This document shows, piece after piece, positions 39,723-62,006 of a stretch of DNA of 64,000 bases. This DNA is from Microcoleus sp. AS-A8 (GTDB lineage: Bacteria > Cyanobacteriota > Cyanobacteriia > Cyanobacteriales > Coleofasciculaceae): contig JAMPKV010000032.1 of assembly GCA_039962225.1 (NCBI GenBank), positions 1-64,000 on the forward strand, written 5' to 3'. Each line of letters opens with the position of its first letter. The first letter of the stretch is position 1. The notes under the pieces were generated by a model. That model searched no databases. It was not told the DNA's origin and saw only the letters and a program-made list of their open reading frames with translations. Both the position numbers and the translations under genes were made by a program.

Positions 39723-40145
39723 ATGCCCCTAGCTGAATCACTATCAACCGCTGTCTTCGTGAAGGAACTCCGGAAGCGCCTGGGACTGACTCAATTACAG
39801 TTTGCCCAATCGTTGGGAGTGTCGTTTCAATCAGTGAACCGCTGGGAACGCGGAAAGACGAAGCCTTTGCCGATAGTTCTCAAGCTTCTTGAGATGATAG
39901 TGAAGGAGATGGGCGATCGATCGAACCGCCTTCGGCGATCGCGGTTCCGATTTACTGAAGCAATATTTTGCACAATAGCAGCCAAGGGTGGGAGAAAAAG
40001 GGTAAAGCATGGCGAACCTGTTAGCTGGCACAGAAGTTCAAGCGCGGAGACTGCGGTGGGAAGTTGTTACATCAACTCAACTGGGACCGCAAACTCTCTA
40101 CCGTTTGCGCTGTTTGGAAGGAGAACTGCGAGGGACAGAACTTGA
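39723..40145 (+). CDS. XRE-family regulator, C-terminus shifted by a 22-bp insertion
   Basis: The HTH is clear: STAVFVKELRKRLGLTQLQF, QSLGVSFQSVNRWERGKTKP, LPIVLKLLEMIVKEMGDR. After MGDR the frame changes and the ORF runs on to 40145, overlapping the DrmD-like start. If the extra 22 bp at 39920-39941 are removed, the frame reads MGDRGSDLLKQYFAQ-stop (TAG 39976-39978), the ordinary end of such regulators. The HTH itself is intact, so DNA binding may survive. Likely controls the island. Confidence 0.75.
   Translation: MPLAESLSTAVFVKELRKRLGLTQLQFAQSLGVSFQSVNRWERGKTKPLPIVLKLLEMIVKEMGDRSNRLRRSRFRFTEAIFCTIAAKGGRKRVKHGEPVSWHRSSSAETAVGSCYINSTGTANSLPFALFGRRTARDRT
39912..39941. repeat. 22-bp small dispersed-repeat insertion at a HIP1-type site
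   Basis: GGCGATCG at 39912-39919 and again at 39934-39941 are separated by 14 bp. The net extra length is 22 bp, not a multiple of three. This matches the very small mobile repeats known from cyanobacteria, which tend to sit at HIP1 sites. Confidence 0.7.
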
Positions 40146-43100
40146 CATCCTTCATCCTTTTGAGCCAGTGGAGCCAGTAATTCGCGATCTGCGTCCAGAC
40201 CGAGCGGCTCCCTTACCGAATTGGCTAGTTTACCACCAAGCTTTTTTGTTGGAGCAAGCGATTGGTACTGATGCTTTGCTTGCCGTGCAGCCGGGACGAC
40301 TGCGGTTAGAACCCTATCAATTGGTTCCCGTACTGCGAGCGATTCGGATGAGTCGAGTGCGGCTACTGCTGGCAGACGGAGTTGGATTGGGGAAGACGAT
40401 TCAGGCGGGGCTAATCCTGACTGAGTTGATGGCGCGGCGAGTAGCCCACCGGATTCTAATTGTTTGCCCAGCAGGACCGCTCCTGGAGCAGTGGAAGCTG
40501 GAGATGTCCGAGCGTTTTGGTTTGCGCTTGGATGAGGTGAATCGGGGACGCTTAGAAGAAATTCGCCGTAGTACCGAACTGGGAGCCAACCCCTTTGACC
40601 ACATCCCATTGGGAATTGCCTCAATTGACTTTCTCAAACAGGAGCGAGTCCTCGATTTATTGGAGAGGGCGAGTTATGACGTAGTGGTGCTGGATGAAGC
40701 GCATCACTGTATGGATTTAGGTTCAATCCAAGAGCGAGAAGATTCACAGCGTCGCCGATTGGCAGAAGTATTGACACGTCAATGTGACTCGTTATTGCTG
40801 CTTACGGCTACCCCCCATGATGGGAATGACCGCTCGTTCGCCTCCCTATGCGAATTACTCGACCCATCACTGGTAGATGGGAGAGGGGTGTTGCGAAGCG
40901 ATCGCTATCGTCCTTATGTGGTTCGCCGCCTGAAACACCATATCATTGACCCGGTTACTGGAAAACAACGCTTCAAAACACGCATTGTTGAGCCGCGACC
41001 CGTTACCGCTTCTGTTGCGGAACATCCTGATTATGTGGCTCTACAGCAGGGGTTATTGGAGTTACTGGCACCGGAGTTGCGTCGAGCGTTCCGAACTCGG
41101 CGCTACAGCGATGTCTTGGCATTTATTGCTTTGCTCAAGCGCAGTGTTTCAACTGTAGAGGCATTTAAATCCACTTTGACGGTGGTGGCAGAGCGGTTTC
41201 AGCAATTGATTACTCAGAAGTCAGAAACCCAAGAGAGTCGGCGGCAGCGGTTGCGGACTCTGCGAGATTATAATCGCAAGCTGGAGCGTTTTGGGACGAT
41301 TAGCTTTGAGGAGGAACAAGAACAGTCGGCACTGGAAGCGGAAGAGTTAGCCCAGAAACTCGCAGAACTGGAACGGGAAGTGAAGTCGGATTCGCGATCG
41401 CTAGCTAAAGTATCCACCTTTGTCGAAGCCCTGGATAACTTGGTGGATTTGGCAGATGCAGCTACCTCCCAAGACCCGAAGTTACAACAGTTGGTTAGAG
41501 AAATTCAAGGCATTCGCGCTCAAATTCCCAACACCAACGTTCTGGTTTACACCGAGTACACCACCAGTCAGCGTGCAGCAGCCAAAGCGCTACGGGATGC
41601 TGGGGTGGGGGAAGTGCTGACGATGAGCGGGGATGACAGTGGAAAAGTGCGGTTGGAGATTACCGATCGCTTTCGGTCTGAGAGCGGTTTGGTCTTAGTC
41701 AGTACGGACACCGCTGCTGAGGGGCTTAACTTGCAACAACGCTGCCATCATCTCATTCACCTGGAGTTACCCTTTAATCCCAATCGCTTAGAGCAGCGCA
41801 ATGGGCGCATTGACCGCTTCGGTCAGGAATACGAGCCAGTGGTGCGTTATTTGTACCTGCGTAGGACGTTTGAGGAGCGGATTTTGCTGCGGTTGATTGC
41901 CAAGTACGAGAAGCAGCGGGAAACTCTGAATTTTGTCCCCAATACGCTGGGATTGACGACCTCGACCGATGCCTCAGCGCAGCGGTTACTCAAGGGGTTA
42001 ATGGAAGAAGACCAGAAGCTATTTCACGATGAAACTCCCTTGTTGGTGAACTTCTCGACCGCTGATGAGAATGAAGGGGCTGATGTGGCTACCCGTGAAC
42101 TATTAGAAGAGATAGACCGTTCGCTCAAGGGCTTTCAACAGGCGGCGCGGACGAATACTTGGTTGGCAGATACGGGAGTAAATGCGGAGAGTCGTCTTTT
42201 AACGGAAGCTGACAAAGCACTGGACTTGGGCGATCGCATTAGTAAAGTAGATTTAGTCAGCTTTGTTCGGGATGCCGTCTTCTTAGATGGCGGCAACTTT
42301 ACTGAAACAGAGCAAGCGGACATTTTTGAAGTGCAACTTCCCTCGGTTTGGAGTTATGGGCTGGATGAACTACCGGGGTATGATGCCGATACGCGCTGCC
42401 TGCGGTTAACCAGTAATCTGGATATCACCCGCGATGCCAAGAACCGACCCGTAGGATTTTTGGGTCGCGCCCATCCCTTGGTGCGACGGGCATTAGACCG
42501 GGTGCGTAACCTGTCGTTTGGCGGTGCTGACCAGAGAAGTCAAGACTCCCGTGCCAGTGTCGTTAAAGCGGATGTCCCAACGCCCACTTTACTGTTTACC
42601 TTCTTGGGGCGAGTATCCAGTGGGGCGGGACCGGAATTTGAACGGGTGCTGGCAGTTAAAGTTATGAATACAGGAGTCGCTAAGTTTTATGACCAGGCTG
42701 AGCAATGGCTGTTCCTGGCAGACCGGAAACAGGCGATTCGCACTACGGATGTTTGGAAGAATTACTTTGAAAGTTGGTGGAATACTGCCCAACAGCAGGC
42801 GCAACAGGTAGCTCAGACGGGGGCGCAGTCTTTGGTAGAGGAATTTGTCAAAACTCGCACCCGTGACTTGAGAGCAGAGCGATCGCGCCAAATCGAATGG
42901 CTGGAACAACGAACGAAAGAAATTACGGGGGAGCCAGTTGAGGTTGAAACAGCCGTTCAGATGAGTTTGTTTGATACGCCTGTGCAGGGAACGGCGGTGC
43001 AGACAGCGCCCCAGTCGGGCTGGATGACGATGACTGACTCCGTTGAGCGGTTGGCAGCGTTTGCTACGGATACCAATCAACCCGTCCGCGTTCGCAGCGA

Positions 43101-43221
43101 AGCAGATGGGGTGTTACGAATCTATCGTCAGCGATTGGCATTGTTAGAGTCGAGGTTAGCACTTCAATCCCCGGAAACTCTGCCACTGGGGGTACTGATG
43201 TTGGTTCCGGAGAAAAATTAA
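40009..43221 (+). CDS. drmD: DrmD-like SNF2 helicase
   Basis: 1070 aa. ANLLAGTEVQARRLRWEVV opening, Walker A LLADGVGLGKTIQAGLIL near 124, DEAH box VVLDEAHHCMD near 227, TATPHDGNDRSF, and C-terminal helicase motifs LVSTDTAAEGLNLQQRC and NRLEQRNGRIDRFGQEYEPV. The layout and length match the SNF2 helicase of class 1 DISARM. Next gene 2 bp on is an adenine methylase, as in that system. Family knowledge: DISARM restricts phage through methylation plus helicase modules. The specific subtype is tentative, since DrmA/B/C-like genes are replaced downstream. Confidence 0.8.
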   Translation: MANLLAGTEVQARRLRWEVVTSTQLGPQTLYRLRCLEGELRGTELDILHPFEPVEPVIRDLRPDRAAPLPNWLVYHQAFLLEQAIGTDALLAVQPGRLRLEPYQLVPVLRAIRMSRVRLLLADGVGLGKTIQAGLILTELMARRVAHRILIVCPAGPLLEQWKLEMSERFGLRLDEVNRGRLEEIRRSTELGANPFDHIPLGIASIDFLKQERVLDLLERASYDVVVLDEAHHCMDLGSIQEREDSQRRRLAEVLTRQCDSLLLLTATPHDGNDRSFASLCELLDPSLVDGRGVLRSDRYRPYVVRRLKHHIIDPVTGKQRFKTRIVEPRPVTASVAEHPDYVALQQGLLELLAPELRRAFRTRRYSDVLAFIALLKRSVSTVEAFKSTLTVVAERFQQLITQKSETQESRRQRLRTLRDYNRKLERFGTISFEEEQEQSALEAEELAQKLAELEREVKSDSRSLAKVSTFVEALDNLVDLADAATSQDPKLQQLVREIQGIRAQIPNTNVLVYTEYTTSQRAAAKALRDAGVGEVLTMSGDDSGKVRLEITDRFRSESGLVLVSTDTAAEGLNLQQRCHHLIHLELPFNPNRLEQRNGRIDRFGQEYEPVVRYLYLRRTFEERILLRLIAKYEKQRETLNFVPNTLGLTTSTDASAQRLLKGLMEEDQKLFHDETPLLVNFSTADENEGADVATRELLEEIDRSLKGFQQAARTNTWLADTGVNAESRLLTEADKALDLGDRISKVDLVSFVRDAVFLDGGNFTETEQADIFEVQLPSVWSYGLDELPGYDADTRCLRLTSNLDITRDAKNRPVGFLGRAHPLVRRALDRVRNLSFGGADQRSQDSRASVVKADVPTPTLLFTFLGRVSSGAGPEFERVLAVKVMNTGVAKFYDQAEQWLFLADRKQAIRTTDVWKNYFESWWNTAQQQAQQVAQTGAQSLVEEFVKTRTRDLRAERSRQIEWLEQRTKEITGEPVEVETAVQMSLFDTPVQGTAVQTAPQSGWMTMTDSVERLAAFATDTNQPVRVRSEADGVLRIYRQRLALLESRLALQSPETLPLGVLMLVPEKN

Positions 43222-43223: not shown

Positions 43224-46200
43224 ATGGCGCTTGAACTACTGCAACAGTGTACCTTCACCGGACCAGCACTCCCAGAACCATTTGTTCAGTTTGAGCTGGA
43301 AAAGGAACTTAGTAAAGAAAAACTATTGTCCAAGACAATGGGACAGGAGGGCAAAGAACTCCAGGTGTCTTGGGAGAGCTATCGGCGCAAGCTGCGGGAA
43401 CTGGCAGTCCGGGGTGGTGCGTTGCGCGTCCAGAACCATGTTATTGAGCCACTGGTGGAGCGGTTGGGGTATGCTCGATTGGAATCTGCACCAAAGGTGG
43501 AAACCCGCGAAGGACAGGAAGATGGGGGTTACTTATTCCTTACGGCAGACAATCAGAGTAAGCTGCGGGTTTGGTGTACGGAGTTTGAAACTGACCTAGA
43601 TGCCCCTGTCCGTCGCGGCGCGGCTTACCGTTACAGTCACTTGCGGATTGCTCAACGGGTGTTGCTTACCTGTGGGGAACGGTTGGGACTGCTGACGAAT
43701 GGGGTGGAACTGCGGCTATTGATTTCCGATCCGGCGCGACCGGATTCCCAAGTTACCATCACCATCGACCCTTACTGGAAGCGATCACGGAACATCCCCG
43801 ACTCCTATCTCCTGCTGCTGGCACTCGCCTCGCCAGAAGGAGTGAAGAAGCTGCCGAACCTGGTTGAGAAGGCGCGATTGCAGCAAGCCAGGGTAACGAA
43901 GGAACTGCGGGTGCAGGCGCGTCAAGCGGTGGAGCGGTTTATTCACGAGATTCTGGAACACCCGGATAATCGGGAGATGTTGAAAGACCTAACCCCCCAA
44001 CCCCATCGGGAGCAAGGGTCGGGGGAGAGGTTAGCGAAGCAGTTATGGAAAGAAGGGCTGATTGTTGTTTATCGCTTGCTGTTTGTCCTGAAGCTGGAAG
44101 CGAGTGACGACCCCGCACGGGCGTTCAGTTTTGCCTCAACGAGTCTCTGGCGCAATACCTTCTCTCCGACAATCACATTAGCCGAGTATGCGCGAAAAGT
44201 GCTGGACGAGGGGATGGAAACGGGGAGTTTCCTAGAGTCGGGGCTGAGATCGCTGTTTCGGATGTTTGCTGAAGGAATATCATGTACTGAGCTAAATGTC
44301 AAGCCTTTGGGCGGTGCGTTGTTTGGGGCGGGTGCGACTCCAGTGTTGTCCAAGTTGCAGTGGGGAGAACGGGCAGTCGCGCATTTGTTGGATCAGTTGC
44401 TCTGGACGGCACCGAAGCGGGGAGCGAGTAATCGGCAACGGGTGCATTATGGCTCGCTGGATGTGGAGGATTTGGGGCGGGTTTATGAGGCATTGCTGGA
44501 ACTGGAGCCGGGGATTTCAACCGAGCGGATGTGTCGGTTGCGGCGGCAGAAGCTAGAGGTGGTGGTGCCTGTGGTGCAGGGGGAGAAGTATCGTCCGGCA
44601 GTGCCGCAGGCGATCGATCCGGTTGCTCTGGAAGAGGAACTGGAGGAGGCAGAGGAAGATGAGGAAGACGAGGCTCCGAAGAAGGGCAAGAAAACGAAAG
44701 TCGAGTGGATTGAAGAGATTCCGCCTAATCGCTTCTATTTACGGGTGGGGTTGGGACGGAAAGCGTCGGGATCATACTATACGCCCCATTCCTTTGTGCG
44801 GTTTTTGGTGCAGGAGACGTTGGGACCGCAGGTGGAGGAGCGCAGTCCGAAGGATGACCCGAACCCAATGGCGATTTTGAAGTTGAAGGTGCTTGACCCG
44901 GCGATGGGAAGTGGGCATTTTTTGGTGGAAGCCTGTCGGTTTTTGGGGGATAAGCTCTACGAAGCCTGTCGGCTGTGTGATGAGTTGGCGACGAAGGCGG
45001 AGGGACGGGTCGAGAAGGCGAAGACTCCAGAGGAGAAGGATGCAGCACTGGCGGAGGCGCAGAAGTTTTGGCAGCGGGTGATTGATTTGCCCGATCCGGA
45101 TGACAAGCTGATGAAGTATCTGCCCAGTTCGGCTCCGGAGAGGAAGGAGTCGGGGTTTTCGCAACAGGAAGCGATCGCTCTTTGTCGTCGTTTAGTCGCC
45201 GTGCATTGTTTGTATGGGGTGGATAAGAATCCGCTGGCGGTGGAGTTAGCGAAGTTATCCTTGTGGTTGGAGTCTCATGCGGAGGGGTTGCCGCTGACAT
45301 TTTTGGATCACCGTCTGGTGTTAGGGGATTCGCTGACGGGGGCGTTTTTTGAGCATCTGTTGAAGGAGCCTGCCAGTGGGGATGATGTGCAAAAGCTGGT
45401 GTGGCAGAACGTGAATGATCAGTTCCGCCATGCGTTGGCGGATGCGCTGCGGTATGTGCGCGATCTGGAAGCGTCGATTGGCACGGATATTTCAGACATT
45501 GAGGCGAAGGAAATTGCTAAGCAAAACCTTGATCGCGCTCTGGCTCCGTTCAAGATTTTGGCAGCTGCTTGGTCGGGTGGAGTGATGTTGGGAGATGAAA
45601 GTGGCGATACGGATTATGCCAGTCTGTTTAGCACCATTGCTCAGACGGGAGATTTGCCGGAGGACTTATCGGATAAACCGAAACTTCTGGCGATGATTGC
45701 CAAAGGGTTAGGGGCTGAGGCAGTTCCGGGTGAGCGATCGGGGTTGCTGGAGGTGTTGGCAAGTAAGAAGTACGTTCCAGCATTTACATATGATCTGACA
45801 TTTGCAGAGGTATTTTATCCAGATGGGAATTTAACAAATCGTCAGGGATTTGATGCTGTACTGGGAAACCCTCCGTGGGAAAAGCTAAGAGTAGAACGTC
45901 GAGATGTTGTTGCAGCAATTGATCCACGGTTTCTCTCCGGCAAAGAAGTTGCTGGTATAGGCGATGAACATGAGTTAATTAAATATATTTTTGAATCTAA
46001 TTCTGAAGCAAAGGTATATGAGCTTGAAATCAATCAAACTAGATCCTTTACACAAAGAACTATTATTGAACCAGCCACGTCAAGAGGTTACGATTTTCCC
46101 ATAGGAAACTTAGATACATATCATCTCTTTATTGCCAAATTTCAAAAGACCTTATCTATGAGCGGGGGGCTTGGATTAGTTCTTGGTGGTGGATTTGCGA

Positions 46201-47582
46201 AAAGCCCTACAGAATCAGGCTTGCGTAGACTAATTTTTGAACAAATCCAGGTACGAATTTTTGCCCATTTTTTTAATTTAAATCAGCTTTTTGTAGGTGC
46301 ATCATCTCGTATCTCTTTTGTCCTTATAGTTGCTGATCACAATCCTCGCTTACAGCAGATACTTACAGGCTTCGATTTAAAAGAATTTACAGATCTCCCA
46401 CTAAAAAATATAGAAGGAAAGTTAGTACCATTGAATAGGAAAAGACTTATCGGAGAATTTTCTTCAAACGATAATTCTGTGAATGATGATACAACTTCAC
46501 ATTTTAATGTTAACGGCATAAATGCCAAGAAAATTTTATCGAATTGGAGAATATCCGTCAGCGAAGGACTACACAGAACAGAAAATAAGAAATACATTGA
46601 GAGCCTTGAAGATGTCCTGCCAGGGTGTACAGATGCTAGATTGCCTCAAGTCCAAAATGAGCTAATTGCTAGAAATGTCTTATGTTTATACGCAGGAAGA
46701 AGCATTGACTTATTTAATCCACTGCCAGAAGAAAAATCTGGTAAATGGACTCCACAAATAGACTTAGTCGTTTCTTTAAGATGCTCAAAACTTTTGAGCC
46801 AAATTAATAATCTAAGCTTCTATCGATTAGCTTGGCGCGAAACATGTGGGCATATAGCAACGAATCAAAGGAGCGCTCGTGCATGTATTCTACCTCCTGC
46901 TACTGCGGCTTCTAACTCACTAATAGTAGAAACTTCTTCTAGAGAACGACCAACAAATAAGGTATTAGCCGCTTGTTCAATAATCAATTCGTTTTCCTTT
47001 GATTTTCAAGTTAGGAGGCTAGTACAAACCCACTTTAATAAAGGTATTTTGTCAAAAACTGTTTTTCCAAAAGAAATACAATTGGCTGATTTTGTTTTTT
47101 TGTCTCATTCTGCTCTTCGCTTGAATTGTGTACATCATGGCTACGAACCTCTCTGGCGCGAACAACTGGGCGACGAGTGGCGCGAACCTAACAAAGACCC
47201 CTTTACTTTCCCCGTTCTCGCTACAGAAGATGATCGCTGGTCAGTCCGTGCCGCCATTGATGGCATCGTTGCTCAAGCCTATGGACTTGAGCGCGACCAA
47301 TATGCTCACGTCCTTTCTACCTTCAGCCACAAAAGCTATCCCAAAGCCCCCCAACTCTGCCTCGATCGCTTTGATGAACTGGAGGCGATCGGACTGGAGG
47401 CTTTCACCAAAAAATACGACCCCTACTGGGACATCCCCCTCAACGAGAACTTGCCCCAACCCGTCATCGACTTGCCTATTCCTGAAAGCCTCACCCCTGA
47501 ATATCAGCAAGGTAGCCTGGATTTAGCATCTGTCACCGAAAAGCCCAAGCGCCAACGGAGGAAGAAAAACGTTACATCATGA
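43224..47582 (+). CDS. drmMI: DrmMI-like N6-adenine DNA methyltransferase
   Basis: 1452 aa. Motif I LKVLDPAMGSGHFLVEACRF near 557, GVDKNPLAVELAKLSLWLES, and catalytic NPPW (VLGNPPWEKLRVERRD) near 881. SGSYYTPHSFVRFLVQETLG precedes the methylase core. Opens with a helical DrmMI-type domain and ends with a basic tail. Family: large class 1 DISARM methylases. The DNA from about 45,770 to 47,115 (including NPPW and the putative recognition region) is clearly richer in A/T than the flanks. ATG-overlap with the DUF6883 gene (47579). Likely marks host DNA. Confidence 0.8.
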   Translation: MALELLQQCTFTGPALPEPFVQFELEKELSKEKLLSKTMGQEGKELQVSWESYRRKLRELAVRGGALRVQNHVIEPLVERLGYARLESAPKVETREGQEDGGYLFLTADNQSKLRVWCTEFETDLDAPVRRGAAYRYSHLRIAQRVLLTCGERLGLLTNGVELRLLISDPARPDSQVTITIDPYWKRSRNIPDSYLLLLALASPEGVKKLPNLVEKARLQQARVTKELRVQARQAVERFIHEILEHPDNREMLKDLTPQPHREQGSGERLAKQLWKEGLIVVYRLLFVLKLEASDDPARAFSFASTSLWRNTFSPTITLAEYARKVLDEGMETGSFLESGLRSLFRMFAEGISCTELNVKPLGGALFGAGATPVLSKLQWGERAVAHLLDQLLWTAPKRGASNRQRVHYGSLDVEDLGRVYEALLELEPGISTERMCRLRRQKLEVVVPVVQGEKYRPAVPQAIDPVALEEELEEAEEDEEDEAPKKGKKTKVEWIEEIPPNRFYLRVGLGRKASGSYYTPHSFVRFLVQETLGPQVEERSPKDDPNPMAILKLKVLDPAMGSGHFLVEACRFLGDKLYEACRLCDELATKAEGRVEKAKTPEEKDAALAEAQKFWQRVIDLPDPDDKLMKYLPSSAPERKESGFSQQEAIALCRRLVAVHCLYGVDKNPLAVELAKLSLWLESHAEGLPLTFLDHRLVLGDSLTGAFFEHLLKEPASGDDVQKLVWQNVNDQFRHALADALRYVRDLEASIGTDISDIEAKEIAKQNLDRALAPFKILAAAWSGGVMLGDESGDTDYASLFSTIAQTGDLPEDLSDKPKLLAMIAKGLGAEAVPGERSGLLEVLASKKYVPAFTYDLTFAEVFYPDGNLTNRQGFDAVLGNPPWEKLRVERRDVVAAIDPRFLSGKEVAGIGDEHELIKYIFESNSEAKVYELEINQTRSFTQRTIIEPATSRGYDFPIGNLDTYHLFIAKFQKTLSMSGGLGLVLGGGFAKSPTESGLRRLIFEQIQVRIFAHFFNLNQLFVGASSRISFVLIVADHNPRLQQILTGFDLKEFTDLPLKNIEGKLVPLNRKRLIGEFSSNDNSVNDDTTSHFNVNGINAKKILSNWRISVSEGLHRTENKKYIESLEDVLPGCTDARLPQVQNELIARNVLCLYAGRSIDLFNPLPEEKSGKWTPQIDLVVSLRCSKLLSQINNLSFYRLAWRETCGHIATNQRSARACILPPATAASNSLIVETSSRERPTNKVLAACSIINSFSFDFQVRRLVQTHFNKGILSKTVFPKEIQLADFVFLSHSALRLNCVHHGYEPLWREQLGDEWREPNKDPFTFPVLATEDDRWSVRAAIDGIVAQAYGLERDQYAHVLSTFSHKSYPKAPQLCLDRFDELEAIGLEAFTKKYDPYWDIPLNENLPQPVIDLPIPESLTPEYQQGSLDLASVTEKPKRQRRKKNVTS

Positions 47583-47920
47583 CTATTGATCGTATGGAAT
47601 TCCCGCTTGCTAAAGCTGAGTACCTATTCAACCATGCAACGGCTTCCGGAGAAGGAGGTGACAAACAAAAATTTTGGCGTACAGTTTTAGGATTTGAGAG
47701 TCCAGAAACGATTCGAGAAGCAATTCTGGCAAAAGTGACGATCGATGGACTAGAACCCAGAGGAGCAAACAATTATGGAGAAAAATATCAAGCAACCGTA
47801 TTGATTGAAGGACCATCAGGAGTCGCTTGGCGAATCAGAACTGGCTGGATTGTGTTAACCGGAGAAGATGTCGCTAGATTTGTCACCGCAGTTCCAGAAA
47901 GATTTGGGAGACAGCAATGA
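47579..47920 (+). CDS. DUF6883 protein
   Basis: 113 aa: TIDRMEFPLAKAEYLFNHAT, ASGEGGDKQKFWRTVLGF, ETIREAILAKVTIDGLEPRG, GVAWRIRTGWIVL. The pattern is that of small DUF6883 proteins, some of which occur as toxin-like modules. Its start overlaps the methylase stop (ATGA) and its stop overlaps the DUF4926 start. Inference: a coupled pair dropped into the island, or an accessory of it. Confidence 0.65.
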   Translation: MTIDRMEFPLAKAEYLFNHATASGEGGDKQKFWRTVLGFESPETIREAILAKVTIDGLEPRGANNYGEKYQATVLIEGPSGVAWRIRTGWIVLTGEDVARFVTAVPERFGRQQ

Positions 47921-48321
47921 GCCAATTTCAACTGTTTGACTCTATCAAACTCAAAGAACCCATTCCCCTGGACGAAGGAGGCACAGCCCCTGAAGGCACA
48001 CCAGGCGCGATCGTGGAAGTCTTCAAAAACGGTGAAGCCTACATGGTGGAATTGTTTGGAGGATGGGTAAAGGCAGACGTTAATGGAGATTTTATCCCTG
48101 GCGATCGCGAAGACCCAGACTCTTTCATAGAAACCATTGGAGTAGAAACAGTTTATCCCCACCAGATGAGTTTAGTCAAACCCGCAAAAGAGACAGTAGG
48201 AGTACGGGCGCAGTTGCTAGCCTTGCTAGACGAGCTATCTGAAAATTCACTAGAAGAAGTAAAAGACTTTGCTGAATTCTTACGAGAAAAACAACGCAAA
48301 GTGATGCAGAGTTCTTCATAA
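47917..48321 (+). CDS. DUF4926 protein
   Basis: 134 aa. The N-terminal ~70 residues (LFDSIKLKEPIPLDEGGT, GTPGAIVEVFKNGEAYMVEL) fit the DUF4926 SH3-like fold, which often stands beside DUF6883. The C-terminal part (LLALLDELSENSLEEVKDFA, EFLREKQRKV) is like antitoxin-type tails. Translationally coupled to the previous gene. Possibly the protective partner of a DUF6883 module. Confidence 0.65.
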   Translation: MSQFQLFDSIKLKEPIPLDEGGTAPEGTPGAIVEVFKNGEAYMVELFGGWVKADVNGDFIPGDREDPDSFIETIGVETVYPHQMSLVKPAKETVGVRAQLLALLDELSENSLEEVKDFAEFLREKQRKVMQSSS

Positions 48322-48597
48322 TCCCGCCAGAGGTTAAAACCCTGACTCATCGCTGGAATACCGTTAAAACGGACTAGAAAAGCTGATTTTAGTCGTTTCA
48401 GATAGGGTGTTCCTTGGAGAGTAATAGAATACGCGATCGCTGGTACATCAGCAGTGATTATAATCACAAATTTTTTAGGGAAGGAATTGTGAGATACGAG
48501 AGAAAAATGGGAACACTATAAATATAGGGGTTCAATAATGCCTTGATTCAGTCACACCAACTGACGTAATCACAATTTTCTTACCTAGTTACGAGAG

Positions 48598-48627: not shown

Positions 48628-48699
48628 GGATAGGGGTAAGTTGATTATGGAGGTAATGGACAGATTATGAGACCTGGATAGCAACACTAAATACAAGGA

Positions 48700-49389: not shown

Positions 49390-49434
49390 CGGCATCACAA
49401 ATATCAGCATTAAATAGTGAAGCTGAAGAAAATT

Positions 49435-52587: not shown

Positions 52588-52591
52588 TCAG

Positions 52592-54106: not shown

Positions 54107-54210
54107 GGAATCAGGATGTACCCCACGCCTAACATCTTGAAGACTGAAAGAGTGAAACGAGCATCAACCATCAACTGAAGTTATTTTGATTCAAACTACA
54201 GCCATCCCTC

Positions 54211-56355
54211 ATGACAGCTTGGACAGCTTCCCCCACTCAAACCTTCCTTAACGAACTGCTGAACCTACCTCGAAAAGTCAGCAAACTCGTGCCTAAAAAA
54301 ATTGCCCTTCTAGAAAAAGACCCCACCTCTGCCAAAGGCGACGCCAAAAAGCTCAAAGACTACGATAACGTCTACCGCGTCCGCATTAACGACTATCGAC
54401 TGTTCTACACCTTCGGTCAAGGCTGGATTAAACTCCTCAGTATCCGCAAACGAGACGAACGCACCTACACCCTAGAACTACCAGAATTTGAAACCCCGGA
54501 AACCTCACCGAATGCCGCTATTCTCCAACCTCAAACAGCAACAGTTGGAGTGTCGAGTAGCGGATATCAGGTGTCAGGAAAAACCGAATCAGAGACAACA
54601 ACCTCCCAACCCCAAGTCGCAAATCCAAAATCTACACTCCCCAACAGTGGCATCACCACAGCCCTACCCTACAAACTCACAAAAGACCTACTACAAAAAT
54701 GGCAAATCCCTTCCGAATACTGGACAGACTTGCTGAACGTCTCTAACTCCGAAGCCATCCTTGAACTCGATATTTCTCATAAATATATCAATCGAATTCT
54801 CGATAACCTCTACCCCCGTCCTCTTGAAGACATTGAAACCCAACCCCAATATCTCCTCAAAGACCTCGAAGACCTAGACCGCTTTGTCGAAGGCACTCTT
54901 CCCGACTTCCTACTCAAACTCAACCCCGAACAAGAGAAACTCCTCAACTTTAGTGGCAGCGGTCCCATCTTAGTAAAAGGTGGTCCCGGTACAGGCAAAT
55001 CCACTCTCGCCCTCTACCGAGTGCAAAAAATGCGAGACTTGGGTTACCAGTCCATTCTCTTCACCACCTATACCAACGCCCTTGTCACCTACTCGGAACA
55101 ACTGCTCTCCCAACTGTTAGGAGAATCCCCTGCCCAAGCTGGGGTCAAAGTTGCCACCGTCGATTCCTTAATCTATCGCCGCTACGCCCAAACCTACGGC
55201 AAGCCCAAGTTTGCTGAATCCGACCGGTGTTTAGCTTACCTGGAAACAGCACTCCAAACCACCGAACTCCCTGCCAAAAATACCTTCGATCGCCAAGTGC
55301 GTCGGCAGGCTCTAGAACGCTTGGGGAGTGTTTACATCCTGCAAGAAATTTTGAGTGTCATTGAAGCCTGGGGAGTCTCCACTTTAGAAGAATACCAAGA
55401 ACTGGCACGACGGGGACGCGGCTACCCCTTGAAAGCCAACATTCGGGAAGCACTTTGGGCAGTCTATCAAACCTGGGAGGGGTTGATGGCAAAAGAGGGC
55501 TGCATCACTTGGGAACAACTGCGACGCAAAGCGCTAGACGCGGCACTCCAATCCTCAGACAAACCTTACCAAGCCGTCATTATCGATGAAGCCCAAGACC
55601 TGTCTCCCGTTGCCCTGCGCTTCTTACTCGCCCTCACCCCAAACCTAGAAGGCATTTACCTGACTGCCGATGCCTCCCAATCTCTCTATCAACGAGGCTT
55701 CAGTTGGAAACAAATCCACACCGACCTGAAAGTAAGCGGGCGATCGCTCCTATTAAAGCGCAATTACCGCAACACTCAGCAAATTGCCGCTGCCTGCACC
55801 ACTATTCTCCAGGATACAGAAGCGGGAGATACTGAGTGTCTGTACCAACAGCCCTCTCCCTACACGGGGAACTGGCCTACCCTACTCCTCGTCGATGACC
55901 CCGACCGAGAAGCACGAGCTATCAAAGACTTCTTAATCACTGCTGCCAAACAGTTTCGCTTACCCCTGCACGCCGGAGCGATTTTGTGTCCCCACCAACA
56001 GAGCGCTCGTCGCATCGCCAAACAGCTCGCTAACGTAGGATTAAAGGCTCAATTTGTCAGTGGCAAAACGATAGATATCAACAGTCCCCACATCAATGTC
56101 TTAACCCTCCACTCCGCCAAGGGGCTGGAATTCCCCTTTGTTGTGGTTATGGGCTTACAGGAAGGAAGTTTACCCCAACTCGAACCTGACCTCCCCTCTG
56201 AAGAAGTGTCAACCGTCTTGTCGGAGCAGCGGCGTCTGTTTTATGTGGGTTGCTCCCGTGCCATGCGATCGCTAATGGTTTGTGGCTCTCCCTCCCATCC
56301 CTCCCAATTTCTGAATTCTCTCACCGAACCCTACTGGCAAAAGCAGGCAATCTAA
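54211..56355 (+). CDS. RelE-like toxin domain fused to UvrD-family helicase
   Basis: 714 aa. Residues 1-~95 (FLNELLNLPRKVSKLVPKKI, KLKDYDNVYRVRINDYRLFY, IKLLSIRKRDERTY) have the RelE/ParE fold pattern. After a linker, UvrD motifs: Walker A ILVKGGPGTGKSTLALYR near 254, DEAQ-type VIIDEAQDLSPVALRFLLAL near 456, LLKRNYRNTQQIAAACTT, and LTLHSAKGLEFPFVVVMGLQ followed by EQRRLFYVGCSRAMRS. A RelE-helicase fusion hints at mRNA or DNA damage on activation. Ends with TAATG overlap to the next gene. Confidence 0.75.
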   Translation: MTAWTASPTQTFLNELLNLPRKVSKLVPKKIALLEKDPTSAKGDAKKLKDYDNVYRVRINDYRLFYTFGQGWIKLLSIRKRDERTYTLELPEFETPETSPNAAILQPQTATVGVSSSGYQVSGKTESETTTSQPQVANPKSTLPNSGITTALPYKLTKDLLQKWQIPSEYWTDLLNVSNSEAILELDISHKYINRILDNLYPRPLEDIETQPQYLLKDLEDLDRFVEGTLPDFLLKLNPEQEKLLNFSGSGPILVKGGPGTGKSTLALYRVQKMRDLGYQSILFTTYTNALVTYSEQLLSQLLGESPAQAGVKVATVDSLIYRRYAQTYGKPKFAESDRCLAYLETALQTTELPAKNTFDRQVRRQALERLGSVYILQEILSVIEAWGVSTLEEYQELARRGRGYPLKANIREALWAVYQTWEGLMAKEGCITWEQLRRKALDAALQSSDKPYQAVIIDEAQDLSPVALRFLLALTPNLEGIYLTADASQSLYQRGFSWKQIHTDLKVSGRSLLLKRNYRNTQQIAAACTTILQDTEAGDTECLYQQPSPYTGNWPTLLLVDDPDREARAIKDFLITAAKQFRLPLHAGAILCPHQQSARRIAKQLANVGLKAQFVSGKTIDINSPHINVLTLHSAKGLEFPFVVVMGLQEGSLPQLEPDLPSEEVSTVLSEQRRLFYVGCSRAMRSLMVCGSPSHPSQFLNSLTEPYWQKQAI

Positions 56356-59300
56356 TGAAACCCACCTTCAAGCTTAAAGATTTAGTTCAGCAAGGAGAAG
56401 CTGCGATCGCGGCGATTAGTCCAGTTTTAGGACAAGGCTTAGCCCATATTGACTGTAGCGAAGTCGAAACCCTCACCCCAGAACAATTCACCGCCTTATT
56501 TTCCGGCATTCCTGAAACATGGGACTTTGTAGAACTCGCAGAGAAAGAAGTCTTTTTAGTTGAAACCCTCACCGAGAGCTTTGCCGAACAGCTCAGCCAG
56601 TGGGTTAACCAACACCAAGGACGCCAACCCACCTCTCCCCCTGCTCCTCCTGCTCCCCCTGCTCCTCCTGTTCCCCCTGCTCCCCCTGCTCGCTCATCTC
56701 CTGTTCCCCTCCATCCGATCAAAGCTCTTGATCGCCTGATTGGAGAATATAAGCATTACCTGCTCACCGAATTTCGTGCTAAAGACCCCCAACTGAAAGC
56801 CGCTTTAGAGGAAGCCCTAGACCAGCCTTTATTTTTAGCGCAAGAACCTTTTTATCAAGCACATCGACCCTTTAAAACGGGTCAGCGCTGGCGGGACTTA
56901 CCCATCGACTCCCAACTCGCCAGGGTGATGGAAGATCGATCGCGCAGTGAGTTTGCTTACTTGCACCAAAGTGAAGCGATCGCCCACTTATTAGGGGAAA
57001 TTGCCTCGCCCCTAGTCGTCACCACCGGGACGGGGAGCGGTAAAACCGAGTCGTTCCTGCTGCCAGTCATCCAGAATGCCATTGAGGATGCCATCCAATT
57101 CAAGCAGTCCGGACTCACGGCAATTCTGGTTTATCCCATGAACGCCCTTGCCAACGACCAGCTACAGCGGATCGAATCTTACCTGGAATCGTCTGGATGG
57201 GCAGGTGCAGTCTCCGTTGCTCAATACGACCGAGGCACTAAACAGAAAGAACGGCAGGCTTTACGTCAAAATCCTCCTCACATCCTTCTTACCAACTATA
57301 TGATGCTGGAGTACCTCTTGGTACGCCCAGCAGACCGAGAGGACATCTTTGCCAATCATCGCTGTCGCTTCCTAGTCCTCGATGAAGTTCACACCTATCG
57401 CGGTACTCTCGGTAGCAACATCGCCCTACTGATGCGACGAGTCAGAACGCACTTAGCCAATGCCAGACAAGACTGGTTGAGTAACGTTACCCCGGATAAA
57501 CAAGCACGGCGCTATCCCGAACTCATCCCCATTGGCACCTCCGCCACGATCAAAAGTATCGCTGAAGGAGAATACAGCCGCGAAGAGAGAATTCAGCTCA
57601 GGGATAAAGCCGTGCAGGAATTCTTCAGCAAAATCTCAGGTGCTCCAGAATCTACCATTCGGGTACTGGGTGAAGAACTCGAAGATATTCAGATTCCAAC
57701 AGAAGCTGCATATCCTTCCGAACCCGTGTCACAGACTAACATTGATGTAGCTAACCCAGAAGCCGTCAGGCAAACCCTCGGCGCTTTGGGGGGGCAACCC
57801 GCAGATACCCCATTTGAAACCGCAGCGCGTCATGCTCGCCTGCTATGGGATTTGAACCGTTGGCTGACTCGCTCTCCTTTGTCTATATCACAGATAGTAG
57901 AAAAAGTCAAAAGCGAAGTAAAAGAACGAACAAGCTTAAGCGACACTCAACTGCAAGACGAGGTAAAAACCGCCCTGCTTGTGGGTGCAGCCTTGCCAGA
58001 AGGCACGCCGGGAGCTTTACAACTCCGTGCCCATCGCCTGATTCGAGGCGGTTGGCAATTCCACCGCTGCGTTAACCCCGACTGCGGTAAGCTTTATCCA
58101 ATGGGTGAAGAACGCTGTCAGTGTGGCTACAAAACCGCCCCGCTCTACCTCTGTCGCAACTGCGGTGCAGACTACCTACGCTTTGTGGGAGACGCCACAT
58201 CTGCCCCCCTGCAACCCAGTGGCGTGCCAGGAGACGAACCCGAATGGATGCTTTACAATCCCAGTCGGTTCGAGACAAACATAGACGATGAAGACATCGA
58301 CGAAACAGAAACCGATACGCCAAACCGCCGCCGTCAAGGTAGCCAGAAACAACCGAAACAGATGAAGAAACGACCCATCCTGCACGGGTCATTCGACATT
58401 TCCACCCTTTCCTTCAGTACTATCCCTACCGATTATCCTTGGCGCGTTACCCTAGCCCCCGCCCGCAACCGTTGTCTGTGTTGTGGTGGTACGGCAGGCA
58501 GCCGCAATGTCGTTACACCTGTAGCGTTGGGAACCTCAGCCGCCGTCAAGGTACTAAGTGAAGGGTTGGTCGAAGCTTTAGCTGAAGCCAACCAAGCTCA
58601 ACCTGAATATGATGGCAAAGAACGGTTATTGGTTTTCAGTGACAGCCGCCAAGATGCGGCTCACCAAGCGAGATTTATCGTATTTGCCAGTCGCTACGAC
58701 CGGATGCGGCGACGGGTTGTGCAACTCTTAAACGAACGGGGTGTTCTCTCCCTTCAACGAATTGTAGAGCTGTTGGGGGAAAACGCCGTGCGCGAACGGG
58801 ATAATAAGTATGCGCCCGATGACACCAACACTTGGCTCACTGATGAAGCCCAAGCACGCATTCGCGCCTGGGAAGAAGCCCCACTGCTTGATGAAATTGC
58901 GGTGAATGCCGGGTATCGCGCCACTCTAATGAATCTGGGTTTAGTCCAAATTCAGTACCACCGCTTAGGTGAATACGTCCAAACTCAGGGGGCAACCATC
59001 GCCCGACAACTGGGTGTCTCGTCGGAGGAACTAGACTATATCTGCCGTTGCTTGCTCGATGAAATTCGCACCCGTGGTTGTCTGAATCGCGAACTGCTAT
59101 GCTATCATCCCGCTTACCCCAGTTCTCCCAGCTATACGAGAGCCGCTGAGTGGGAACGACGAATCAAGCAACCCCAAGGGTATGCTCTCTCAAACGGACG
59201 CCCCATCGCTTACCTGGATCGTGCCAACGTACCCTATGGCATTAAACTGCACAACCCCTGGCGCAAACCTAAAGCGGGGGGGAGAGGTCCCAGTTTAGAG

Positions 59301-62006
59301 CGTATTTTGAAGCACCTGCTGTCTCGATGGGGCGGAACTGAGCCGACTGAGGAACACCTGGTAGAAGTTCTGGAGTGGCTGTTGAAAGGCAGTTTCTTAG
59401 TGGCGGCACAGTTGTATGGGCGTCGAGAGAAAACTAGCCTGTTGCAGGTCAATGCTGAGGTGGTACGTTTGAAATTAGCTGCCCCACAGGAGCGTTACCG
59501 CTGCGAGGTTTGTTCCACTCCCCTGTTAGGGGGGCGAGAAAAATTCCCCTGTCCTGAGTGTCACGGTAACTTGAAACATTGGGTAGAGTCCGATGTAATG
59601 GACAACCGAAACGTTCAGCGGATTCTTTCTCCCGAATTTATTCCCCTAGTCGCGGGGGAACATACCGCCCAAATTCCCCATGATGTCCGAGTTGACTTAG
59701 AAAACAAATTCAAAGCTAAGGCATCAGAGTCAAAAGTCAATTTATTAGCTTGTTCTCCCACATTAGAAATGGGTATTGATGTCGGGGGGTTGGATGCAGT
59801 GGTTCTACGTAACATCCCGCCGCGTCCGGATAATTACGCTCAGCGGGGAGGACGAGCTGGGCGTCGTACCCGCATCGGCTTAGTAGTAGGTTACGCTCGC
59901 AGTACGCCCCACGACCAGTATTTTTACGATAAACCTGAGGAAATGATTGCCGGGGAGGTGCCTGCACCCGCACTGGCTTTGGGCAACCGGGACGTGATTT
60001 TTCGGCACTTGAATGCGATCGCTTTTGGTGCGGCAGAACCGGGATTAGCTGGCAAAATGGTAGAGTACGTCTCCTCTCAAGGGGAAATTCAGCAAGAAGC
60101 CGTGGATGCCCTGATTGCTGGAGTAAGAGCGCAGTCTGAAAGAGCGCTCGTAATGGCGCGTGAAGCGTGGGAAGGCACAGTTTTGCCGGATGCCCAACTG
60201 GATGAAACCGCACTGCGATCGCATCTAGAAAGCTTGCCAGCGCGTATTCAAGACGTAATCAACCGAACAGCGCGGCAAGTCAAAGAACTGCGAAAAGCAC
60301 TAGACATTTACTACCAAGACCTTCAAGGCGAACGAGCTGGCACCCGTGCGGGTCAACTGATTGCTCGCATTCTAGGCATCCAGACGGATAAACAACGCGC
60401 TCGCACCGAAGCAGATGACCGTTCTTCTGGTTATCCCTTACGGCGGTTTGCGGAATTTGGTATCCTTCCTGGCTATGAATTTCCCACCCTACCCGCAGCA
60501 CTGCGACTGCTCGGCGATGAACGCGAGGAAGAGCCAATAAGCATAGCGCGTCGCTTGGGAATTGGTCAATTCCAACCGGATGCTCAAGTCTTTGCTCGTA
60601 CCAAACGCTGGAAAGTCATCGGTTTGGATAACGCCTCCCTCTGGAATCCGAGAAGCGAAAGCGCTACTTGGCTATATCGCAACTGTCAAACGTGCCAGTT
60701 GCGATTCGATGCTTCAGAACCGTCCTGCCCCCGATGCGGCAACGAGCAACCCGGACAGGCATTACCTGCTGGTGAATTTGCAGGCTTTTTAGCGCGACGG
60801 GATGAAAGTCCAATTTTGGACGAAGAAGAACGCTACGCTACCCGCAATCTCGTTAAAACTCACCCGCAATGGAATGGACAGGTTGTGGGACGTTGGACAG
60901 TCGCGACAGCATGGGGACTACGATTGAGCCGGGATGAGGAAGTGCGCTGGATTAATGAAGGCTTGCCCCCCACAGAGAAAGATAATAAAGACACGGACAT
61001 CCGCCCACTGCACAATGAAGCTAAAGGTTACCTGCTCTGTAGCGACTGCGGTCGGATACTAGAAAACCCCGATCTACTCCAGAGCGCGACTCAGGGACGG
61101 CGGAAAGCACGTAAATCCAATCAAGACGACCCCTTCGGTCATGCTGAAAACTGTCCTCAAATCGGGCAATCGCCAAAACCCTTGGCACTCGTCACGGCGG
61201 GCAAAGCAGAAGTTTTGCGGCTAATGTTACCTGTACCGAATTCTATTGAGAAACAAGAGTTGCAGTCTTGGGGGCTATCTCTGGGCTATGCACTCAAAGC
61301 AGGAATGCAACATCTCTATATGCTCGATAACTCAGAAATTGATTTTGAGTTTGAGGGTCCGTGGGCAGGTCGTACTGATGGCAAGCGTTACAGTTGGATA
61401 TCTCTAACGTTTATCGACCCCAGCTTGGGGGGAAGTGGCTACCTGCGTCGCATTGCGACTGAGTTCGATACGGTAGCCAAACACGCGATCGCACATTTGG
61501 CTCATCCCGGATGTGAGACGGCTTGTTACCGTTGCCTCAAGTCATACCAGAATCAGCGCTACCACGAGCTGCTCAACTGGCCGCAAGTGATTCCAGCACT
61601 GAAAGAACTGTCGAAAACCCCACCCATCAGCCGTCGAGAACAACTTGGCGATATGGACGACCCTCGCCCTTGGTTAGAAGCTTATGAGACTGGTGTAGGT
61701 TCACCTCTAGAACTCAAGTTTCTGCGACTGTTCGAGCAGCACGGGTTCCATCCCCAAAAACAAGTGCCAGTTCCCCTCGACAACCCGATTTCTGTAGCGG
61801 ATTTCGCCATGCCAGAACAGCATCTGGCAATTTATGTTGATGGCGCGGCATTTCACAAGGGTGGCAATCGACGACGCGATCGCGCCCTTCGAGACCGGCT
61901 CCGTAATGGTAATCCGCCCTGGCGAATTGTGGAACTTCAAGCAGCGGACTTAGTGCAAGGGTCTGCTTTGGTAGAGCATCTGAAAAGAGTTGCTACCAAA
62001 AAATAA
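56355..62006 (+). CDS. DUF1998 helicase with C-terminal nuclease fold (DruE / DrmA-B-like)
   Basis: 1883 aa from ATG 56355 (KPTFKLKDLVQQGEAAIAAI), whose A is the last base of the preceding stop. A Pro-rich run (SPPAPPAPPAPP) lies near 95-115. Walker A TGTGSGKTESFLLPV near 225, DEVH box FLVLDEVHTYRG near 339. Zinc-type Cys clusters near 571-608 (NPDCGKLY, ERCQCG, CRNCGADY), near 705 and near 1050. FSDSRQDAAHQARF and SPTLEMGIDVGGLDAVVLRN, ending PRPDNYAQRGGRAGRR. DUF1998 core CETACYRCLKSYQNQRYHEL near 1720. Last ~100 residues (SPLELKFLRLFEQHGFHPQK, VADFAMPEQHLAIYVDGAA, F-H) look like a DUF559/VSR nuclease. Resembles DruE and fused DrmA-DrmB. Confidence 0.75.
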   Translation: MKPTFKLKDLVQQGEAAIAAISPVLGQGLAHIDCSEVETLTPEQFTALFSGIPETWDFVELAEKEVFLVETLTESFAEQLSQWVNQHQGRQPTSPPAPPAPPAPPVPPAPPARSSPVPLHPIKALDRLIGEYKHYLLTEFRAKDPQLKAALEEALDQPLFLAQEPFYQAHRPFKTGQRWRDLPIDSQLARVMEDRSRSEFAYLHQSEAIAHLLGEIASPLVVTTGTGSGKTESFLLPVIQNAIEDAIQFKQSGLTAILVYPMNALANDQLQRIESYLESSGWAGAVSVAQYDRGTKQKERQALRQNPPHILLTNYMMLEYLLVRPADREDIFANHRCRFLVLDEVHTYRGTLGSNIALLMRRVRTHLANARQDWLSNVTPDKQARRYPELIPIGTSATIKSIAEGEYSREERIQLRDKAVQEFFSKISGAPESTIRVLGEELEDIQIPTEAAYPSEPVSQTNIDVANPEAVRQTLGALGGQPADTPFETAARHARLLWDLNRWLTRSPLSISQIVEKVKSEVKERTSLSDTQLQDEVKTALLVGAALPEGTPGALQLRAHRLIRGGWQFHRCVNPDCGKLYPMGEERCQCGYKTAPLYLCRNCGADYLRFVGDATSAPLQPSGVPGDEPEWMLYNPSRFETNIDDEDIDETETDTPNRRRQGSQKQPKQMKKRPILHGSFDISTLSFSTIPTDYPWRVTLAPARNRCLCCGGTAGSRNVVTPVALGTSAAVKVLSEGLVEALAEANQAQPEYDGKERLLVFSDSRQDAAHQARFIVFASRYDRMRRRVVQLLNERGVLSLQRIVELLGENAVRERDNKYAPDDTNTWLTDEAQARIRAWEEAPLLDEIAVNAGYRATLMNLGLVQIQYHRLGEYVQTQGATIARQLGVSSEELDYICRCLLDEIRTRGCLNRELLCYHPAYPSSPSYTRAAEWERRIKQPQGYALSNGRPIAYLDRANVPYGIKLHNPWRKPKAGGRGPSLERILKHLLSRWGGTEPTEEHLVEVLEWLLKGSFLVAAQLYGRREKTSLLQVNAEVVRLKLAAPQERYRCEVCSTPLLGGREKFPCPECHGNLKHWVESDVMDNRNVQRILSPEFIPLVAGEHTAQIPHDVRVDLENKFKAKASESKVNLLACSPTLEMGIDVGGLDAVVLRNIPPRPDNYAQRGGRAGRRTRIGLVVGYARSTPHDQYFYDKPEEMIAGEVPAPALALGNRDVIFRHLNAIAFGAAEPGLAGKMVEYVSSQGEIQQEAVDALIAGVRAQSERALVMAREAWEGTVLPDAQLDETALRSHLESLPARIQDVINRTARQVKELRKALDIYYQDLQGERAGTRAGQLIARILGIQTDKQRARTEADDRSSGYPLRRFAEFGILPGYEFPTLPAALRLLGDEREEEPISIARRLGIGQFQPDAQVFARTKRWKVIGLDNASLWNPRSESATWLYRNCQTCQLRFDASEPSCPRCGNEQPGQALPAGEFAGFLARRDESPILDEEERYATRNLVKTHPQWNGQVVGRWTVATAWGLRLSRDEEVRWINEGLPPTEKDNKDTDIRPLHNEAKGYLLCSDCGRILENPDLLQSATQGRRKARKSNQDDPFGHAENCPQIGQSPKPLALVTAGKAEVLRLMLPVPNSIEKQELQSWGLSLGYALKAGMQHLYMLDNSEIDFEFEGPWAGRTDGKRYSWISLTFIDPSLGGSGYLRRIATEFDTVAKHAIAHLAHPGCETACYRCLKSYQNQRYHELLNWPQVIPALKELSKTPPISRREQLGDMDDPRPWLEAYETGVGSPLELKFLRLFEQHGFHPQKQVPVPLDNPISVADFAMPEQHLAIYVDGAAFHKGGNRRRDRALRDRLRNGNPPWRIVELQAADLVQGSALVEHLKRVATKK

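Follow-up and report, generated by a model that had tools for sequence, protein, structure and literature searches.

Class 1 DISARM operons carry a DrmD-type SNF2 gene and a DrmMI-type methylase gene as their 5' gene pair, Druantia combines DruE with DruA-D or DruH, and in SWI/SNF and INO80, SNF2 motors are paired with actin-related proteins (actin/Hsp70-fold ATPases). The ARMADA system was named in a 2025 preprint (Bell et al., bioRxiv, September 2025; PMC12458937), the accessible passages of which describe ArmA as a BrxHII/RapA-like helicase, ArmB as a PglX-like methylase with an NPPW motif, and ArmC as a YprA-like helicase with a Vsr tail. According to the same passages, Type II ARMADA adds ArmD, a RelE-GajB fusion, and shows anti-phage activity in Escherichia coli for which all four genes are required. 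Here, we describe a locus of ten open reading frames (ORFs), all on the plus strand, at positions 39723-62006 of a 64,000-nucleotide window (the whole stretch of DNA that was analysed) from Microcoleus sp. AS-A8, in which these four genes enclose a two-gene cassette encoding a SNF2 ATPase (SNF2b) and an Hsp70-like protein (Hsp70L). Loci and genomes used for comparison are given by their L and G numbers.

The preferred reading, to which we assign a probability of roughly 0.7, is that the locus is an ARMADA operon with the gene order ArmA-ArmB-[insert]-ArmD-ArmC, whose junction holds inserts, chiefly the SNF2b-Hsp70L cassette acting as an add-on to methylation systems. A previous sequence-only reading of this DNA had listed DrmD- and DrmMI-like genes, a second SNF2 helicase, an Hsp70-like ATPase, a RelE-UvrD fusion, and an 1883-residue DUF1998 helicase, and all of these are present, on one strand and where it placed them, by ORF coordinates and profile searches with PADLOC, Pfam and NCBIfam and, for the Hsp70-like ATPase, by a family profile and a structure model (13 ORFs were scanned with PADLOC, with the best 25 matches per protein listed). 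It knew of no named system with this set; the outer four genes correspond to ARMADA (PMC12458937). The SNF2b-Hsp70L pair is no part of ARMADA as described in the accessible passages of that preprint.

The outer four genes

Judged from their domains and motifs, ArmA, ArmB, ArmD and ArmC of the window are an ARMADA system. The first two form a gene pair, in which ArmA (40009-43221) is a BrxHII/RapA-like SNF2 ATPase (DrmD 394 bits, BrxHII 255 bits) with a Walker A motif at position 124 and DEAH at 229, and ArmB (43224-47582) is a PglX/DrmMI-like DNA methyltransferase of the Eco57I/PglX type (DrmMI 309 bits, Eco57I E=2.6e-14) with a SAM motif at 558 and NPPW at 882. ArmD (54211-56355) joins a RelE/ParE-like domain, whose N-terminal ParE_toxin match (E=1.4e-4, 22.8 bits) lies slightly below the cut-off of 23, to a GajB-like UvrD helicase (UvrD_C E=1.7e-21, GajB 98 bits). 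ArmC (56355-62006), the start of which overlaps the ArmD stop by one base, is a YprA-family DEAD/DUF1998 helicase of 1883 residues (DEAD E=2.9e-22, MZB E=3.9e-9) with a putative Vsr/PD-(D/E)xK-like C-terminal domain. In this tail, E and D positions are invariant, and the best PDB matches, to a mobile-intron protein and Vsr nucleases, are weak (E about 0.008). The motifs that were mutated in E. coli ARMADA, according to the preprint passages (PMC12458937), have counterparts in the window (Walker A, DEAH/DEVH/DEAQ, NPPW and the SAM motif).

The same four genes are found together in relatives that have no SNF2b-Hsp70L pair. Plasmid ABRG53a of Pseudanabaena ABRG5-3 (L119) carries them in the order A-B-D-C, with identities to the window of 68% for ArmA (over 1075 residues), 58% for ArmB, 63% for ArmD and 63% for ArmC, and the order A-B-x-D-C is also seen, again without the pair, in P. 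galeata (L120) and genome G093 (L124). Because ArmD-ArmC stay with ArmA-ArmB in these relatives, the outer four genes form one system and the pair is an insert. The sequence-only reading had divided the locus between the DrmD/DrmMI-like genes and 49435-62006, and had named comparison with relatives as the test of that division. The outcome was split, with 54211-62006 remaining beside ArmA-ArmB and 49435-54106 absent from all three relatives. Its view of a composite locus related to DISARM and Druantia, possibly of two nested systems, is retained, with the dividing line moved to the edges of an insert at 49435-54106.

As its similarities indicate, the Arm operon of the window is a mosaic; in the best local matches to P. 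galeata, ArmD reaches 62%, versus 26-28% for ArmA, ArmB and ArmC. At a threshold of 1e-60, ArmD was found in 9 of 292 sampled cyanobacterial genomes. Genome G002 encodes a RelE-UvrD protein with 52% identity to ArmD (L123 8627-10774), and the other Arm genes had no match in the 19.5 kb around it. A phage collection yielded just three partial matches to ArmC. The ABRG5-3 locus is a dense multi-system island, with a DUF2357 gene upstream of ArmA and a gene for a DruE-like YprA helicase (2082 residues; L119 23786-30034) lying tail-to-tail with ArmC and overlapping it by 11 bp.

In the ArmC tree, where ARMADA types were assigned by gene order and content and not by the tree of the preprint, the window and ABRG5-3 pair on a third branch (100/100), outside the 12 Type I-like rows (99-100/99) and the three Type II rows. 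ArmD is also found in P. galeata, G093 and G116, which are among the 12 Type I-like loci. The branches are long, and the third lineage is not firmly placed relative to Druantia (85/68). Among the sampled sequences, the window ArmC represents a third lineage, separate from both groups of rows. The locus has the same four components as ARMADA and differs from it in this lineage and in the order A-B-[insert]-D-C, which is shared by ABRG5-3; the strict Type II order, A-B-C-D, is that of E. coli pLAO8.

The DrmD-like SNF2 and DrmMI-like methylase genes at the 5' end resemble class 1 DISARM, and the same cassette sits in a class 1 DISARM-type operon of G027. DISARM was nevertheless rejected as the host system in the window, as no DrmB or DrmC was among the matches listed for the 13 ORFs and the match of ArmC to DrmA is weak (58 bits). 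Both SNF2 genes fall below the NCBI DrmD cut-off (485 and 422 versus 610 bits). The PADLOC 'DrmA' model PDLC02572 matches both of them (270 and 137 bits) and appears to be an SNF2 model, because it covers the G027 DrmD end to end (637 bits). The likeness to Druantia lies in ArmC, whose top PADLOC names are DruE1 (411 bits) and DruE3 (403 bits); unlike in Druantia, no other Dru protein was among the matches listed for the same ORFs. The ArmC of all five other ARMADA loci tested, both types included, also scores as DruE in PADLOC, and the DruE-like score is therefore no evidence for Druantia.

The SNF2b-Hsp70L pair

Comparison of loci shows that SNF2b and Hsp70L, as traced through their sequences, are a separately inherited unit that keeps both genes together and enters unrelated defence operons. 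SNF2b (49435-52587), the first gene of the cassette, encodes a RapA-like SNF2 ATPase that matches PADLOC model PDLC02623 ('DrmD') with 1091 bits. Its start is most likely the ATG at 49435, rather than the GTG at 49417, because homologues align from about there. RapA, a bacterial SNF2 protein that recycles RNA polymerase, is the closest solved structure, being the top PDB hit in both the sequence-profile search (E 5.5e-41) and the fold comparison (Foldseek E 2.2e-35; about 1090 aligned columns, 17-20% identity). The SNF2b model, with a predicted local distance difference test score (pLDDT) of 81.6, has a long C-terminal helical hairpin (residues 939-1032). Pfam reported no nuclease domain in SNF2b, and no methylase was recognised in it. 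Unlike RapA, SNF2b is paired with an Hsp70-like gene.

Hsp70L (52592-54106; 504 residues), the second gene, is assigned an Hsp70-like nucleotide-binding domain (NBD) from its model, Foldseek matches and invariant positions. The AlphaFold2 (AF2) model, built from 66 sequences (pLDDT 91.6), resembles an Hsp70 NBD. Its best Foldseek match is Hsp70/DnaK (E 2.9e-11), with a template modelling (TM) score of only about 0.4-0.6, and the family profile matches Hsp70 NBDs at E 3.9e-5. Five residues (D11, K18, K82, E218 and D241) are invariant in all 66 homologues. The model is confident to about residue 470 and continues into a low-confidence tail; the substrate-binding domain (SBD) of Hsp70 chaperones is not present. 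Neither Pfam nor NCBIfam matches the window Hsp70L, and its two PADLOC matches are weak (E 1.8e-4 and 3.5e-4); its homologue in L098 reaches E 3.8e-4 with the NCBI DnaK model. Neither protein of the pair has a recognised nuclease or other effector domain. An Hsp70-like domain also occurs in a defence locus in CnuD of Type III CoCoNuT (PMC11090510), which the accessible passages describe as combining NBD/SBD with HEAT-like parts, as an ATPase predicted to be very weak, and as a partner of McrBC-type proteins; by this description, Hsp70L is set apart from CnuD in having the NBD only, conserved ATPase positions, and SNF2b as partner.

Relatives of the pair were sought in 84,980 species, each represented by one genome, with the first 294 residues of SNF2b as a query blind to the neighbouring gene, and 80 of 89 were kept. 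Hsp70L adjoins SNF2b in 75 of these 80 loci, from several phyla. Three of the remaining loci reach a contig end (L069, L071 and L091), one has only 179 bp upstream (L101), and one has a truncated SNF2b without Hsp70L (L056); a six-frame profile search did not find Hsp70L in any of the five. The two genes overlap or lie at most 50 bp apart in 66 of 72 loci, and their tree distances are correlated (0.95 over 71 loci; no more than 0.13 in 1000 permutations). On the SNF2b tree, the order of the genes changes by a single flip. Rows with Hsp70L first are cyanobacterial, and most of them have an Hsp70L with an extended N-terminus (L036, L042, L027 14040-16274 and others); in L036, the single one tested by profile, this N-terminal region is SMC-like and coiled-coil-like. 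By clustering, any third family lies near the pair in at most 7 of the 80 loci, many flanks being cut. The commonest such neighbour (7/80) is a RecD-like helicase of 1255-1284 residues that matches PADLOC PDC-S68 (L048 14792-18559 and relatives).

An Hsp70L match was found in 8 of the 292 sampled cyanobacterial genomes. Apart from the Microcoleus genome itself, four have an adjacent SNF2b, two have short diverged SNF2b matches nearby, and one has a small Hsp70L fragment near a contig end, with SNF2b not found in the stretch examined. Short SNF2b-like matches close to Hsp70L-like ORFs in L020-L023 (G187 and G109) look like decayed or very diverged cassettes. The pair is carried on plasmids in Cyanobacterium HL-69 (the same record as one of these eight genomes), Leptolyngbya BL0902 and Shinella. 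A first scan of genome contigs with Hsp70L alone as query returned no match, and a scan of IMG/VR for viral carriage returned a single partial match, 27% identical.

The edges of the unit are nearly those of its two genes. The pair of Stutzerimonas (L098), upstream of ARMADA, and that of Pseudomonas (L105), upstream of a DUF499 system, are 90.8% identical in DNA sequence (246-5188 / 9985-14924). This match opens 1 bp ahead of SNF2b and closes 16 bp past the end of Hsp70L; the only other alignment between the two loci is a 61-bp match elsewhere, with just 246 bp of upstream sequence in L098. In comparisons of L048 with L065, L028 and L050 (89.5-95.6% DNA identity), the 5' edge falls between 102 bp before and 30 bp after the predicted start of SNF2b, and the 3' edge between 4 bp before and 3 bp after the stop of Hsp70L. 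As a control, loci with a shared context align beyond the pair (L046/L051, 90% over 13.3 kb; L048/L049, 99.6% throughout). The similarity of L033 and L037 extends into the next gene, and L038/L043 and L097/L104 share flanks too.

In the close pairs tested, SNF2b and Hsp70L both evolve under purifying selection, as estimated from the ratio of nonsynonymous to synonymous substitution rates (dN/dS, NG86), which is 0.05-0.20 for SNF2b in six pairs and 0.15-0.21 for Hsp70L in five. Hsp70L has the higher dN in all five pairs, and dN is highest near its N-terminus in four of them. In the window, GC content at third codon positions (GC3) is 0.32 for SNF2b and 0.36 for Hsp70L, versus 0.49-0.54 in the four Arm genes; the pair and host operon of G027 differ likewise in total GC.

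The host operons are of several kinds. By PADLOC, the pair lies inside a class 1 DISARM-type operon in G027 (DrmD-[pair]-DrmMI-DrmA-DrmB), and it ends the series DrmA-DrmB-helicase-[pair] in L075 and, by similarity, in L097 and L104. BREX contexts are found in L077 (BrxC-[pair]-PglX) and L063 (PglX-[pair]-...-PglZ), and an Hma context, HmaB-HmaC-[pair], in L046 and, by similarity, in L051. Other neighbours are a Type III methylase (L099), DUF499 (L105), and an Eco57I methylase with ResIII (L064). ARMADA Type II lies downstream of the pair in L090 and L098, and ArmC-ArmA-ArmB in L103; the pair is also beside ARMADA-type genes in L068. Type I restriction genes (HsdS/M/R), considered as neighbours in L095 and L100, were rejected; in L095, Pfam identifies a PLD-like protein (below the cut-off) and an SNF2 protein. 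Downstream of the cassette, L033 and L037 both carry GNAT, RNase III-like and RelE-UvrD genes, possibly another unnamed system; L033 additionally has a DpdF-UvrD fusion, and L037 has a gene resembling DrmA.

Neighbours of at least 150 residues in the same-strand run were counted in the 40 loci that have 5 kb or more of sequence on either side. A labelled gene is present in the run of the pair in 14 loci, or 16 with the addition, on inspection, of L064 and L090; the labels of L037 and L058 are loose. Stand-alone pairs make up 10 of the 40 loci, after exclusion of L090 (followed by ARMADA II) and L056 (without Hsp70L) from 12, and one of the ten, L061, has a truncated SNF2b; the other loci had other genes. 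As L046/L051 and L048/L049 are near copies, the number of independent nested loci is smaller. On the SNF2b tree, seven context labels on 31 rows change at least 12 times, a count that omits G027 and includes 'solo' labels given by hand (L035, L041, L042 and L045 have small operonic neighbours).

Other genes of the locus and its gap

The remaining ORFs lie upstream of ArmA and between ArmB and the cassette. A candidate regulator, an Xre/MqsA-type helix-turn-helix (HTH) protein (39723-40145; HTH_3 E=9e-13, residues 13-57), overlaps ArmA by 137 bp in another frame, and annotated HTH genes are also found upstream of ArmA in two Chroococcidiopsis plasmids. ArmB is followed, with a 4-bp overlap, by a DUF6883 gene (47579-47920; DUF6883 E=1.7e-12, no NCBIfam match) and, with another 4-bp overlap, by a DUF4926/DUF2281-like gene (47917-48321) whose matches are below the cut-off (DUF2281 E=1.7e-5, DUF4926 E=5.5e-4). 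These two are probable partners, a putative toxin-antitoxin-like pair. ORF229 (48700-49389; 229 residues, DUF6861 E=4e-7) has a signal-like N-terminus and a glycine-rich segment. It is nearly orphan, with fragmentary matches in just 3 of 145 other cyanobacterial genomes searched, and for this reason was rejected as a system component; it probably belongs to neither ARMADA nor the SNF2b-Hsp70L pair. Most gaps between the genes are short, and the tight spacing reported earlier is interrupted at two places, by 378 bp (48322-48699) and 104 bp (54107-54210).

All 12 cyanobacterial loci examined have one or more genes separating ArmB from ArmD or ArmC, and these genes largely differ. The survey covered the window, L119, L120, L121, L124 and L135-L141, with ArmA and ArmB of the last seven recognised by product names alone, and left out Planktothrix H6, H7 and H10 as well as L122 (G116), which starts inside the operon. 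The contents, toxin-antitoxin genes and nucleases among them, include VapC, PIN, DUF3368, Rpn, Uma2, radical SAM and others; ABRG5-3 has a single endonuclease-domain gene on the opposite strand. Among proteobacteria, the gap holds LeoBC- and LeoA-like genes in Stutzerimonas (L155) and a PDC-S02 gene in Accumulibacter (L154). The gap is empty, with a 1-base overlap, in Natrinema and E. coli pLAO8.

Beyond ArmC, a WD40-repeat gene is located on the opposite strand (window 62798-63955), and the contig ends at 64990. On the other side of the locus, an ORF of 433 residues on the opposite strand (window 36828-38129) has a weak JukB match (E 2.4e-7).

Proposed role and significance

In the proposed mechanism, ArmB would mark self DNA, and the motors of ArmA, ArmC and ArmD, together with the putative nuclease tail of ArmC, would attack unmarked phage DNA without killing the cell, as suggested by the accessible passages on the Type II system tested in E. 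coli (PMC12458937). SNF2b is most likely a RapA-type double-stranded-DNA translocase. Hsp70L is probably a switch, powered by ATP, that binds to SNF2b, perhaps at the hairpin of residues 939-1032, and determines when SNF2b runs. Since the pair combines a RapA-type translocase with an Hsp70-fold ATPase and has no recognised effector, the two proteins would together remodel or strip nucleoprotein complexes on invading DNA. The recurrence of the pair in methylase-guarded systems suggests an add-on that would strengthen whichever such system hosts it, and the stand-alone copies suggest that it may also work by itself. A more ambitious version, which we hold only tentatively, is that the two genes form a mobile immune module, so far undescribed, which inserts into many classes of methylation-guarded operon (ARMADA, DISARM, BREX, Hma and restriction-modification), with an actin/Hsp70-fold ATPase controlling an SNF2 motor as a bacterial counterpart in principle of the Arp module of SWI/SNF. 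The likeness to SWI/SNF and INO80, in which the same two kinds of protein are paired, would be an analogy only; SNF2-motor structures are among the Foldseek matches.

Several points weigh against the preferred reading. The window ArmC stands outside both the Type I-like and Type II clades, ArmD precedes ArmC instead of following it, and the similarity behind the Vsr identity of the ArmC tail is weak. At E <= 1e-100, ArmC was found in the window's own genome alone among the 292 sampled cyanobacterial genomes, leaving few close relatives to compare. The GC contrast between pair and host is slight or absent in L077, L098 and L105. The stand-alone loci fit an independent system as well as an add-on, and the nesting counts are raw counts, with no background rate at which defence genes in general come to lie within other operons. 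The activity of the cassette, the contact between SNF2b and Hsp70L, and their contact with ARMADA are predictions from sequences and models.

The closest competitor holds that SNF2b-Hsp70L is self-sufficient, a defence system in its own right that merely has promoters or islands in common with others, so that its nesting has no functional meaning. This explanation, which we regard as a serious minority view, would account for solitary copies such as those of the Leptolyngbya BL0902 plasmid and Fischerella (L029) and for the frequent changes of context on the SNF2b tree; however, the pair lies repeatedly inside, not just beside, methylation-based operons (G027, L077, L063 and the window), and its lack of a recognised nuclease or other effector domain is not what a complete system would suggest. 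Somewhat less probable is that the ArmB-ArmD junction is simply a tolerant slot, where passengers pile up as addiction or selfish cargo from which ARMADA gains nothing. The occupied and largely differing gaps of all 12 cyanobacterial loci fit such a slot, as do LeoBC/LeoA and PDC-S02 in the two proteobacteria, yet many of the passengers are themselves defence or toxin-antitoxin genes, and selection on the genes of the cassette is purifying in other hosts.

That Hsp70L is a chaperone that folds or assembles large defence proteins seems improbable. Its Hsp70 NBD fold and conserved catalytic positions would suit this role, but it has no domain for binding substrates, its modelled domain stopping near residue 470, and it is tied to SNF2b and to no other large protein. 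Still harder to accept is that all genes of 39723-62006 make up one obligate system of seven to ten genes. Their common strand and mostly short gaps, and the presence of the pair beside ARMADA-type genes in L068, L090, L098 and L103, speak for a single system; against it, the Arm genes occur without the pair in ABRG5-3, P. galeata and G093, most of the 80 pair loci have no Arm gene within the flanks covered, and the insert differs in GC3.

The cassette is easily overlooked, as PADLOC calls SNF2b 'DrmD' and no family of Pfam, NCBIfam or PADLOC is a convincing match for Hsp70L. We found no description of the pair, and hence of this combination of SNF2 motor and Hsp70-fold ATPase, in the literature titles, abstract openings and passages covered, and an unlabelled mention elsewhere is possible; in the passages covered, PMC11090510, PMC7159879, PMC3710099, PMC12839542 and PMC13192584 concern other Hsp70 or SNF2 contexts. 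The locus also reveals a third lineage of ArmC, and a gap between ArmB and ArmC in which other defence genes accumulate. A near-exact two-gene unit that moves between defence systems allows the modular assembly of bacterial immunity to be observed and tested.

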